Of a stretch of 10,016 nucleotides of DNA, positions 2,340-9,021 are shown one piece after another (position 1 is the stretch's first letter; the number at the start of each line of letters is the position of its first letter). The DNA is taken from NCBI GenBank assembly GCA_031273885.1, contig JAISRA010000101.1, forward strand, positions 1-10,016. Reading direction: 5' to 3'. The notes beneath the pieces are model-generated. The model searched no databases, was not told the DNA's origin, and saw only the letters and a list, made by a program, of their open reading frames with translations. A program made the translations under genes and the position numbers. This stretch comes from Endomicrobium sp. GTDB taxonomy: Bacteria; Elusimicrobiota; Endomicrobiia; Endomicrobiales; Endomicrobiaceae.

Positions 2340-3422
2340 ATGTCATATCTTGGGTTAGCTAGAAAATTCAGACCTCAAAATTTTGATGAAATTGTAGGAC
2401 AGGCACACATTTCTCAAACTCTTAGAAATGCAATTTCAGAAAACCGTATTGCACATGCTTATTTGTTTAGTGGACCAAGGGGTTGTGGTAAAACGAGTAT
2501 GGCAAGAATTTTTGCTAAAGCTTTAAACTGCAAAAGTGTTTCCACAAAGAAGCCTTGCGGAATATGTGAGAATTGTTTAGATATTTCGAAAAGTTCAAGC
2601 GTTGATGTTTTAGAAATTGATGGGGCATCAAATAACGGTATAGATGAGATAAGAGTTTTGAGAGAAAACGTAAAATTTTCAACCGCTAATTCGAAATATA
2701 AAATTTACATTATAGATGAAGCGCACCAGATAACCACGCAGGCTTTCAATGCACTGCTTAAAACTCTTGAGGAGCCTCCTGCACATGTTGTTTTTATTAT
2801 GGCTACAACAGAGCAACATAAAATACCAGACACAGTTCTTTCTAGATGCCAAAGATACAGGTTTAAGCTTATATCAAAAGTAGAAATGTCTGCGGCAATA
2901 AAAAATATTGCGAAAAAAGAAGGGTTTGAAATAGTCGATGAAGCATTAAATATAGTTATTACTGTTTCTGGCGGCTCTATGAGAGATGCTTTAAGTCTTT
3001 TGGATCAGGCATCATCAAATACAGGTAAGATAGAAGGCAAATATGTAAGAGATTTGCTAGGATTGCTTCCCAAATGTATAATAACTTCAGTTACAGAGAA
3101 TATAGCAAAAGGTGATATTCAAGTAATTTTAAAAACTGTTAAAGAAATTACTGAACAAGGATATAATATTTTGCAGTTTGCTAGAGATTTAAGAGATCAT
3201 TTAAGACAAGTTATGATTTATTCAATAAACCCTGCGATTGCAGAAATTTTACCTGAAGATGAAAAGCTTTTTGAAATTCAAAAAAAAATGTTTACGCTTG
3301 CACAGCATGTGCGTATAATAATTTATTGTCAAAAGTTCTTGAAGAAATGCGCTGGCACGATCAGCCAAGGATTCTCCTTGAAATGCATCTTCTTAAAATG
3401 TCAGAGCCATATTATGATATAG
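2340..3422 (+). CDS. dnaX: DNA polymerase III gamma/tau subunit, 5' part of a frameshifted dnaX
   Basis: This is the AAA+ ATPase motor of the replicative clamp loader, which opens and places the beta clamp. I chose the ATG at 2340 because MSYLGLARKFRPQNF is the family's usual beginning and AAGGA lies 10 bases upstream; an upstream GTG at 2322 is also possible. Counted from 2340, the visible features are Walker A GPRGCGKT (45-52), the zinc-binding cysteines 64, 73, 76 and 79, Walker B IIDEAH (124-129), LLKTLEEPP (139-147), the SRC arginine-finger motif (168-170) and GGSMRDALSLLDQ (211-223). Family-like sequence ends at RII (residue 327, base 3320). The remaining 33 residues to TGA-free read-out at 3422 are out-of-frame. 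The rest of domain III continues one frame over. The ATPase core is intact. The split may be real decay, recoding or a sequence error. Confidence 0.93.
   Translation: MSYLGLARKFRPQNFDEIVGQAHISQTLRNAISENRIAHAYLFSGPRGCGKTSMARIFAKALNCKSVSTKKPCGICENCLDISKSSSVDVLEIDGASNNGIDEIRVLRENVKFSTANSKYKIYIIDEAHQITTQAFNALLKTLEEPPAHVVFIMATTEQHKIPDTVLSRCQRYRFKLISKVEMSAAIKNIAKKEGFEIVDEALNIVITVSGGSMRDALSLLDQASSNTGKIEGKYVRDLLGLLPKCIITSVTENIAKGDIQVILKTVKEITEQGYNILQFARDLRDHLRQVMIYSINPAIAEILPEDEKLFEIQKKMFTLAQHVRIIIYCQKFLKKCAGTISQGFSLKCIFLKCQSHIMI
3280..3288 (+). other. Run of nine A in dnaX, candidate slippage site
   Basis: Nine consecutive A lie in the reading frame just before codon ATG 3288-3290 and about 30 bases before the dnaX frame break. 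Adding one A in the transcript, or a -1 ribosomal slip here, would enter the frame that stays open to the end of the gene at 3895. Transcriptional slippage on a nine-A run is known in Thermus thermophilus dnaX, and poly(A) slippage rescuing frameshifted genes is known in insect endosymbionts. Whether it occurs here is inference. Confidence 0.45.
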
Positions 3423-3895
3423 GTGAGCTGATAAGTAGATTAGCCGAGCTGGAGAAAAATGTTAAAAGTGGCAATACAGAAATCTTTTTTGAGAAACAAT
3501 CTGTAGAACAAAAAGGAAACAGTGTTGTTAACGAAGTCATAGCACCAATAAATTTACTTAGTGTGTGGAATGAAATTGTCGAAGAAATAATAAAAAAACA
3601 TCCTCTTACCGCTGAGCCACTAAAAAGAGTGGTTATTAAAGTGTTTGACGATTTGTCAGTACAATTGATAGTTTCAGGACAGTTGGATTATGAGAGCGTT
3701 GTAGAATTCAAAGAACAAATTTCTAAGCTTTTTCAAAGAGAAACTAACTTGAATATAACAATTAAAATTATTCTTGCAAGCAATTCGTTTACTGAAGTGC
3801 AGGATGATGAATATAAGGATACATTCAGAACTGAGGTACCAAAACATATAGAAGAAATAGCTAAAAAATTCGGTTCTGTTGCAAAGAAGATTTAA
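3320..3895 (+). CDS. dnaX: DnaX C-terminal part, displaced by a one-base frameshift
   Basis: This is the continuation of dnaX in the next frame. It opens with NLLSKVLEEMRWHDQPRILL and then EMHLLKM, the conserved end of the oligomerisation domain III (compare the R-W-x-x-x-P-R-I-L-L-E pattern of the family), and runs to a TAA at 3893-3895. Joining RII of the first part to NLLSKVL by restoring a single A near 3320 gives a seamless family-like protein of about 518 residues, a normal length for a gamma/tau subunit. After domain III comes a linker, then a C-terminal segment with LLSVWNEIVEEIIKKHP and LSVQLIVSG, as in many DnaX tails. The only start available is a TTG at 3326 without a ribosome binding site, so independent translation is unlikely. 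The good conservation suggests a recent shift, a recoded gene, or an assembly error. Confidence 0.8.
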   Translation, partial: NLLSKVLEEMRWHDQPRILLEMHLLKMSEPYYDIGELISRLAELEKNVKSGNTEIFFEKQSVEQKGNSVVNEVIAPINLLSVWNEIVEEIIKKHPLTAEPLKRVVIKVFDDLSVQLIVSGQLDYESVVEFKEQISKLFQRETNLNITIKIILASNSFTEVQDDEYKDTFRTEVPKHIEEIAKKFGSVAKKI

Positions 3896-3910: not shown

Positions 3911-4507
3911 ATGAATAGACCGCAGCTTATAGAGAAAATGGTTGAAAAAATTAAAAAACTGCCGGGTATAGGTCCTAAAATGGCTGAACGTTTGAGCTAT
4001 CATATATTAAAAATGTCGCAAAACGAAGTTGACAGACTTGTAGATTCTATACAAAAGGCAAGAACAGGAATGAAGAGTTGTAGTGTTTGTTATAATTTAA
4101 GCGAATACGATCCGTGCCCCATATGTTCAGATCTAAAAAGAGAACACAATACTATATGCGTTGTAGAAACTCCTCAGGATTTAATAGCAGTAAGTAAAGT
4201 TAAAGATTATAAGGGGCTTTATTTTGTGCTCGGAGGCTCACTGTCGCCTCTTGATGCCGTAGGGCCTGACGATATAAGAATTGATAAGTTGATAAGAAGA
4301 ATAAAAATTGGTGACATTAATGAAATAATAATTGCTACGGACACAGATTCCAAAGGTGAAATGACTGCCGTTTACCTTGCGGAGATTATAAAAAAATTAA
4401 GTGTTAAAGTAACAAGGTTGGGCTATGGGTTACCTGTTGGTGGTGATATTGAGTATGCCGATGAAGTTACTATTTCGCGTGCTATTGCAGGTCGGAAAGA
4501 AATGTAA
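3911..4507 (+). CDS. recR: Recombination mediator protein RecR
   Basis: RecR works with RecF and RecO to load RecA at single-stranded gaps during recombinational repair. The protein has 198 residues, the usual length. In order it shows an N-terminal helix-hairpin-helix with LPGIGPKMAERL (17-28), a four-cysteine zinc finger (Cys57, 60, 69, 72), and a Toprim domain with VVETPQDL, LGGSLSPLDAVGPDDI and ATDTDSKGEMTAVYLA. The C-terminal LPVGGDIEYADEVTISRA is a family signature. The ATG at 3911 is preceded by AAGGGA (3894-3899), which overlaps the dnaX stop, so the two genes are probably co-transcribed and translationally close (15-base gap). An earlier ATG at 3906 is followed at once by TGA. The common middle gene ybaB/ebfC is absent between dnaX and recR here. 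All expected motifs are present. Confidence 0.97.
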   Translation: MNRPQLIEKMVEKIKKLPGIGPKMAERLSYHILKMSQNEVDRLVDSIQKARTGMKSCSVCYNLSEYDPCPICSDLKREHNTICVVETPQDLIAVSKVKDYKGLYFVLGGSLSPLDAVGPDDIRIDKLIRRIKIGDINEIIIATDTDSKGEMTAVYLAEIIKKLSVKVTRLGYGLPVGGDIEYADEVTISRAIAGRKEM

Positions 4508-8304: not shown

Positions 8305-9021
8305 ATGTTTAGAAAGATTATAATTTCGTGTATAGTTGTCTTTGTTTTTACGTCATTTGTGCTTGCAAATAGAAGGTATGTAATAGATACACCGACTACA
8401 AATGTATTGAATTATGGTTCTTATAATATATGGGTCAGATGTTTTTCCGAAGGTAATGTTATTTCAAAACTCGAGGTTGGCGTATTTAAGTTTTTAGATA
8501 TTGGAATGTCGTTGGAGCTTGATAAATTTATAGGAGATAAAAAGGTTATTAAAGCTGCAGTGCCGGCTTTAGATATTAAACTTAGGCTTTACGGCGGAAG
8601 TATGACTATTCCAGCTATAGCGGTAGGTTATGATGGACAGGGTTATTTTATCAATAGTAAAAATAGCTACAGACAGAAAGAAAAAGGATTGTATTTTGTT
8701 ACTGGCAGAGAATTTTTTATTGATGGACTAATGCTTAATATTGGCATCAATATAAATGATTTTTCAAAAACTAAAGTTTGTGGATTCATAAACGCAATGA
8801 TTCCTGTCTATAAAGAATTAATTTATTTTATGACGGAGTACGACAATATAAATTATTCCCATGATGCAAGGCTTAATTGTGGTTTAAAATTTGTTTTAAC
8901 AGACTATATAGATGTAAGTTGTATTATAAGAGGTTGTTGGTGTGTAAATGTAAATGAGATTTCTGGGACAAGAATCCAAAATGAAAGAGTTTTTAAAGTA
9001 AACTATTCCGGCAAATTTTAA
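8305..9021 (+). CDS. Putative outer-membrane beta-barrel protein with signal peptide
   Basis: The 238-residue protein begins MFRKIIISCIVVFVFTSFVLA, a clear signal peptide with a basic start, a hydrophobic core and an Ala-containing cleavage region near residue 21. The mature part alternates polar and hydrophobic residues in short strands separated by turns, for example KLEVGVFKFLDIGMSLELDK, AVPALDIKLRLYGG and PAIAVGYDGQGYF, and has little helix-like sequence. This fits a small beta-barrel of the outer membrane. I do not recognise a named family. The GVFKFLDIGMSLELDKF and IPAIAVGYDGQG stretches recall uncharacterised outer-membrane proteins of anaerobic Gram-negatives, but that is recollection, not a match. 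There is no strong ribosome binding site (AAGAGAAAATAA precedes the ATG). It has its own promoter and a possible operator upstream. It has five cysteines, of which three fall within CIIRGCWC near residues 210-217, unusual for a barrel. Confidence 0.8.
   Translation: MFRKIIISCIVVFVFTSFVLANRRYVIDTPTTNVLNYGSYNIWVRCFSEGNVISKLEVGVFKFLDIGMSLELDKFIGDKKVIKAAVPALDIKLRLYGGSMTIPAIAVGYDGQGYFINSKNSYRQKEKGLYFVTGREFFIDGLMLNIGININDFSKTKVCGFINAMIPVYKELIYFMTEYDNINYSHDARLNCGLKFVLTDYIDVSCIIRGCWCVNVNEISGTRIQNERVFKVNYSGKF

Follow-up and report, generated by a model that had tools for sequence, protein, structure and literature searches.

The window, by which we mean the whole stretch of DNA that was analysed, is 10,016 bases long and makes up the entire contig C119 of a draft genome (G000) that totals 915,914 bases over 143 contigs, with a completeness of 87% and a contamination of 6%. 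Among named relatives, Candidatus Endomicrobiellum dinenymphae is nearest to the draft, with other Endomicrobium/Endomicrobiellum drafts next. The genome is of the Endomicrobium/Endomicrobiellum type and resembles that of a termite-gut protist symbiont; the genus Endomicrobiellum has been described as comprising termite-gut flagellate endosymbionts (PMC11257099). The window carries dnaX, recR and two tRNA genes, and dnaX was the only window gene flagged as broken in the comparison with relatives. It also holds a putative cluster for 2-oxoacid:ferredoxin oxidoreductase and, at one edge, the putative beginning of accA. The features at the locus are:

2340..3422, + strand: 5′ part of dnaX in the zero frame, 360 aa, with the ATPase domains and most of domain III; its last ~34 residues are out-of-family
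3275..3422, + strand: the sole interval (148 nt) where a switch of frame could reconnect both parts of dnaX, from stop-codon maps
3280..3288, + strand: nine-A run, within the zero-frame codons CAA AAA AAA ATG (3279-3290), which contain A AAA AAA
3315..3317, + strand: one-base lesion, with one base fewer than the relatives, at a codon that is Met in 27/29 of them
3317..3895, + strand: 3′ part of dnaX in the second frame, 192 codons plus stop, with the rest of domain III, the linker and the C-terminal motif VPKHIEEIAKKFG
3911..4507, + strand: recR, the intact neighbour, which also adjoins dnaX in relatives

A single frameshift was seen in the recR of one relative, G018 (L231, contig C73, ~3326-3329, minus strand). 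Elsewhere in the window, positions 301-1569 and 1655-2010 had no DNA match to the fetched relatives and one weak protein match (22 residues, 1857-1922); they are possibly remnants of lost genes. An ORF at 8305-9021 shares 51-53% identity with two relatives, where the flanking conserved genes share ~79-87%. It is predicted to encode a fast-evolving protein.

The zero-frame reading of dnaX begins with an ATG at 2340, is family-like over 2340-3314 and ends at a stop at 3420-3422; its product matched the NCBIfam dnaX_nterm model with 425.7 bits. A one-base frameshift, which the earlier note had reported, was confirmed: 2340-3314 lies in one frame and 3317-3895 in another. The N-terminal match ends at or before 3317 in all comparisons and the C-terminal match sits in the next frame. 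With 15 DnaX relatives, this second match starts at 3317 in 10 cases and at 3194-3311 in 5. The broken codon is at 3315-3316, directly after CGT and 26 bases past the nine-A run, rather than after RII at 3320 and 30 bases past the run as first placed. The same note took the missing base to be one A, which is possible but not the most parsimonious reading, as the codon is ATG (Met) in 27/29 relatives, Leu in 1 and Ile in 1. Sequence alignment of the product to solved E. coli structures ended at residues 299-301.

The nine As were exactly where they had been reported, at 3280-3288, and the frame reached by adding one A is open as claimed, with no stop over 3275-3892. In this second frame there are stops at 3260 and 3272 and the next is at 3893 (the true stop, 3893-3895), so a +1 slip at the A-run would reach the true stop. 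Together with the zero-frame stop at 3420, the stops at 3260 and 3272 mean that only 3275-3422 could rejoin the parts. The slipped product would carry a local replacement, as had been proposed, but of 10 residues (to NVYACTACAY) instead of about 11 (MFTLAQHVRII). Its length, said to be unchanged, comes by arithmetic to 518 aa, and most relatives have 527-552. At the sites that the slip would change to NVYACTACAY, relatives have F in 29/29, R in 28/29 and H in 27/29.

The earlier note had suggested looking in close relatives for conservation of the shift and of the run, and neither is conserved. By alignment, all 29 fetched same-genus dnaX genes (29/29) are in one frame across the site (0/29 broken), and the A-run at the homologous site is 4-8 A long in these 29 relatives. 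The C-terminal part was also searched against 40 genomes and matched in 37; the start positions of the N- and C-terminal matches are in frame in 36/36 other genomes and out of frame in the window's genome. The dnaX search had itself given 37 same-genus matches, the window included; 30 of them were made into loci (one of which is the window) and the other seven were compared by coordinates only. There was no dnaX match in 4/41 genomes (G001, G019, G020 and G033), G020 being outside the 40-genome set used in the C-terminal dnaX and EF-G surveys. On the sequences compared, the break and the nine-A run are both private to this draft.

Long A-runs do occur in intact copies: there are 9 runs of at least nine As in 8/29 intact dnaX genes of relatives. 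In relative G023 (L024, codon 308, reverse complement) an intact dnaX has eight As in a row at the homologous site and an 11-A run close by. In relative G027 (L017, reverse complement) dnaX is in frame for 388 residues and the tau end is decayed, with six stops; judging from this genome, a gamma-only DnaX may possibly be natural in the genus. The window's break falls ~60 residues earlier than the G027 decay, inside domain III.

A second intact dnaX, the existence of which the earlier note had set against its own reading, was searched for in the 87%-complete assembly and not found, though the missing part may hold one. The one distant match, on contig C111 (35% identity, residues 15-187), is probably delta prime.

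We estimated how often a rescuing A-run would lie in the right place by simulating 40,000 one-base deletions in 220 ORFs of at least 150 residues. A rescuing run of at least nine As was present in 0.7% of the simulated deletions and one of at least eight in 2.7%, and the density of runs of at least nine As in relatives' dnaX gives 2.9% for a 148-nt interval; these chance figures favour a link between run and lesion but overstate it, since dnaX was picked because the run was there. In the sampled ORFs of G000, runs of at least nine As are about half as frequent as expected from codon shuffling (26 observed vs 58 expected), as would be the case if such runs slip and are selected against. Among 18 frameshift events in three genomes (19 rows, one event being read in two orientations; one event has no common open interval), only that in dnaX (1/18) has a run of at least nine As in its interval and none of the 17 others does.

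How far the draft sequence itself can be trusted was judged from its other genes. Of 140 conserved genes placed on 61 sampled contigs of G000 (window included), 6 are broken, and each of the six has a single lesion: a frameshift in dnaX and in an [FeFe] hydrogenase, and a stop in EF-G, in a weakly AddB-like gene, in a weakly kinase-like gene and in a gene without family match. An earlier count of 7/111 had included the stop at the natural end of rpoC, and a tighter rule with more reference genes changed it to 6/140. In the control genomes, 14/184 (G018) and 8/243 (G002) genes are broken, some with many lesions, and in G008 2/51 under the earlier, looser rule. The hydrogenase gene (L138, G000 contig C86, 2374-4379, minus strand) has a single frameshift with at most five As in a row in the interval; the G018 copy has an in-frame stop.

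For EF-G, a single copy was found in G000 (L122, contig C110, 123-2201, minus strand); it has one in-frame TAA and is 90% identical to a relative's. At E 1e-150, EF-G matched in 19/39 other genomes, one of them partially, with a stop in 0/19; at E 1e-60 it matched in 20/39. The EF-G of G013 shows a TAA in the E 1e-60 search without a counterpart in the E 1e-150 search, probably its natural end. At E 1e-60, 19/40 genomes have no EF-G match, 2 of the 14 near-complete genomes among them. This is odd for an essential gene and may reflect missing contigs; whether through missing contigs or real loss, the absence blunts the argument for error that EF-G would otherwise offer. In the window's genome dnaE is complete. 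Gene breakage is common in this group, but lone lesions in two genes that are normally essential have the look of errors, minority alleles or very fresh mutations. For a large set of Endomicrobiaceae drafts, Illumina reads were assembled with MEGAHIT (PMC11257099).

The age of the lesion was approached through the state of the 3′ part. Its dN/dS is 0.13-0.25 against 8 relatives (of 12 aligned) and 0.14-0.34 when those relatives are compared with one another (28 pairs), rough values with synonymous sites near saturation. The 3′ part has no internal stop in 191 codons, and under simulated neutral change the probability of no stop is 0.14 at 0.05 and 0.03 at 0.1 substitutions per site. Because pairwise dS to the nearest relatives is ~0.9, an unbypassed lesion could span no more than a small fraction of the branch. 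The zero-frame residues from the run to the break, MFTLAQHVR, keep the family's F, H and R, with L changed to M. A long-used bypass would leave these residues out of the full-length product, so their still mostly family-like state suggests a very recent lesion or a consensus error, and not an old programmed site. Together with the constraint and the open frame of the 3′ part, this points to a lesion that is recent or an artefact. An old pseudogene was rejected on the single lesion, the normal constraint and the lack of an internal stop.

The observation is thus confirmed, and the cause is a very recent lesion or a sequence error. We favour, as the probable reading, that the nine-A run lies only by chance beside what is a recent lesion or an error of the consensus. 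The dnaX gene, encoding the clamp-loader subunit gamma/tau, would then lack one base in the middle of domain III, either as an error of the draft consensus or a minority allele, or as a mutation too recent for other decay to have followed. As read, it would encode a protein of 360 aa that lacks the tau C-terminus as well as the final portion of the collar domain, and the nine-A run would not be a used recoding site. We infer that the cells mostly carry an intact dnaX or have only just lost it. The absence of the break in relatives, the lack of decay or of a hairpin, and the other single lesions in the draft, including that in the sole EF-G found, are consistent with this. The hydrogenase of the same draft was frameshifted without a long A-run, so frameshifts here need none, and runs of at least nine As are present in 8/29 intact dnaX genes of relatives, including the 11-A run of G023 near the same place. 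However, DnaX is considered essential, and a real lesion without bypass should therefore be lethal. For Illumina reads, if such were used, the loss of one base outside a homopolymer would be an unusual error; a rescuing run is expected by chance in only 0.7% to 2.9% of cases and such runs are depleted in ORFs; and the EF-G argument is weakened by the 19/40 genomes without a match.

The main rival is a real deletion bypassed at the nine-A run, which we regard as a serious possibility, though one that probably does not hold. In some fraction of events RNA polymerase would add an A, or the ribosome would move one base backwards at A AAA AAA; the resulting DnaX, ~518 aa long and almost complete, would differ at 10 residues of domain III, and events without a slip would leave a short gamma-like by-product. 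The run lies inside the only possible 148-nt interval, such a run is expected for 0.7% to 2.9% of deletions, dnaX alone of the 18 frameshift events has one, run and lesion are both private to the lineage, no second dnaX was found and the 3′ part is constrained. There is also precedent in Blochmannia dnaX and other endosymbiont genes (PMC3017870, PMC5009743), and in many bacterial genomes selection against runs prone to slippage becomes visible at nine As (PMC1088944). Against a bypass, the lesion is outside the tract and not inside it as in Blochmannia, most of the 10 residues that would be replaced are conserved, the zero-frame ones have drifted little, and an A-run could not have bypassed the EF-G stop of the same draft. 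In Buchnera, a transcriptome-wide study saw no frame-restoring transcription error (PMC5574713). In its most specific form, a just-arisen poly(A) bypass in which a deletion in the essential clamp-loader gene is tolerated via a nine-A run that substitutions in this lineage created 26 bases upstream, the idea is a little more doubtful still; if true, replication would depend on slippage of polymerase or ribosome, and gamma-like and tau-like DnaX would come from one gene with a 10-residue segment swapped. An established programmed recoding of dnaX, E. coli-like or reversed (tau shifted) and selected for two products, is very improbable. The slippery A AAA AAA is in the zero frame (CAA AAA AAA ATG), as the E. 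coli-type −1 signal would have it, and a reversed arrangement has been described for a few bacteria (PMC5009743). However, 0/29 relatives have the break, and no stable RNA structure follows the nine As (3289-3340, −7.1 kcal/mol, z +0.42; longer stretches, z +0.22 and −0.19), which leaves the signal without its downstream stem-loop and without conservation; on these two grounds established programmed ribosomal frameshifting was rejected. The lack, by inspection, of a Shine-Dalgarno-like stretch in 3255-3279 also counts against it, as does a stop for the short product ~130 bases past the run, after out-of-family residues. No tRNA-Lys gene was found in 60 sampled contigs, which would bear on ribosomal slipping. 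The break, the run and the open bypass frame of the earlier note have stood up and no second dnaX was found, but a consensus error or very recent lesion is at least as likely as the slippage it proposed.

Should the deletion be present in the cells, an essential replication gene would rely on mistakes of transcription or translation, and its lesion and rescue would lie at different places. That separation would allow "tract causes lesion" to be told from "tract permits lesion", a distinction that cases like Blochmannia, with the indel inside the tract, do not allow. An error, in turn, would be a useful warning that essential genes can appear lethally damaged in drafts of this group.

Poly(A) rescue was reportedly described by Tamas in 2008. 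In Blochmannia and Buchnera, poly(A) slippage has been shown, or proposed, to correct frameshifts in genes that include dnaX (PMC3017870, PMC5009743), with 12-50% corrected transcripts for other frameshifted endosymbiont genes (PMC5009743), and laboratory evolution shows bypass of frameshifts that lie inside or next to short repeats (PMC3812077). The earlier note drew a parallel with insect endosymbionts; the named relatives here fall in a group described as living in termite-gut flagellates, not in insect tissue. Our literature search, with subscription papers mostly outside its reach, found no paper joining Endomicrobium with slippage, and by title none of the literature on dnaX, frameshift, homopolymeric and endosymbiont is on Endomicrobium. 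The Endomicrobium endosymbionts resemble the present draft in that broken genes are usual, and in strain Rs-D17 replication initiation/regulation pathways are interrupted by pseudogenes (PMC4505116, PMC8809381). A survey of these endosymbionts found that replication functions had not been lost to any notable degree (PMC11257099), and dnaX is mentioned 0 times in PMC8809381 and PMC11257099.

The parallel with Thermus thermophilus holds for the nine-A run in dnaX (PMC1088944, PMC5009743), but the direction is reversed: tau is in one frame there and slippage gives the shorter gamma, whereas here slippage would be needed for the long product. The tssM1 gene of Citrobacter rodentium is closer in direction, being an interrupted gene in which slippage on an A-run gives the longer product, but the run has 11 A, the slippage was shown experimentally and both products are required (PMC4256274). 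In Blochmannia vafer and B. floridanus, correction of dnaX frameshifts by slippage has been proposed (PMC3017870). There, as here, the same gene in an AT-rich endosymbiont has a long A-run and is otherwise intact. The indel in Blochmannia, however, falls within the poly(A) tract, affects the tau-only region and is common to two species, whereas the lesion here is 26 bases past the tract, in domain III and private to one draft.
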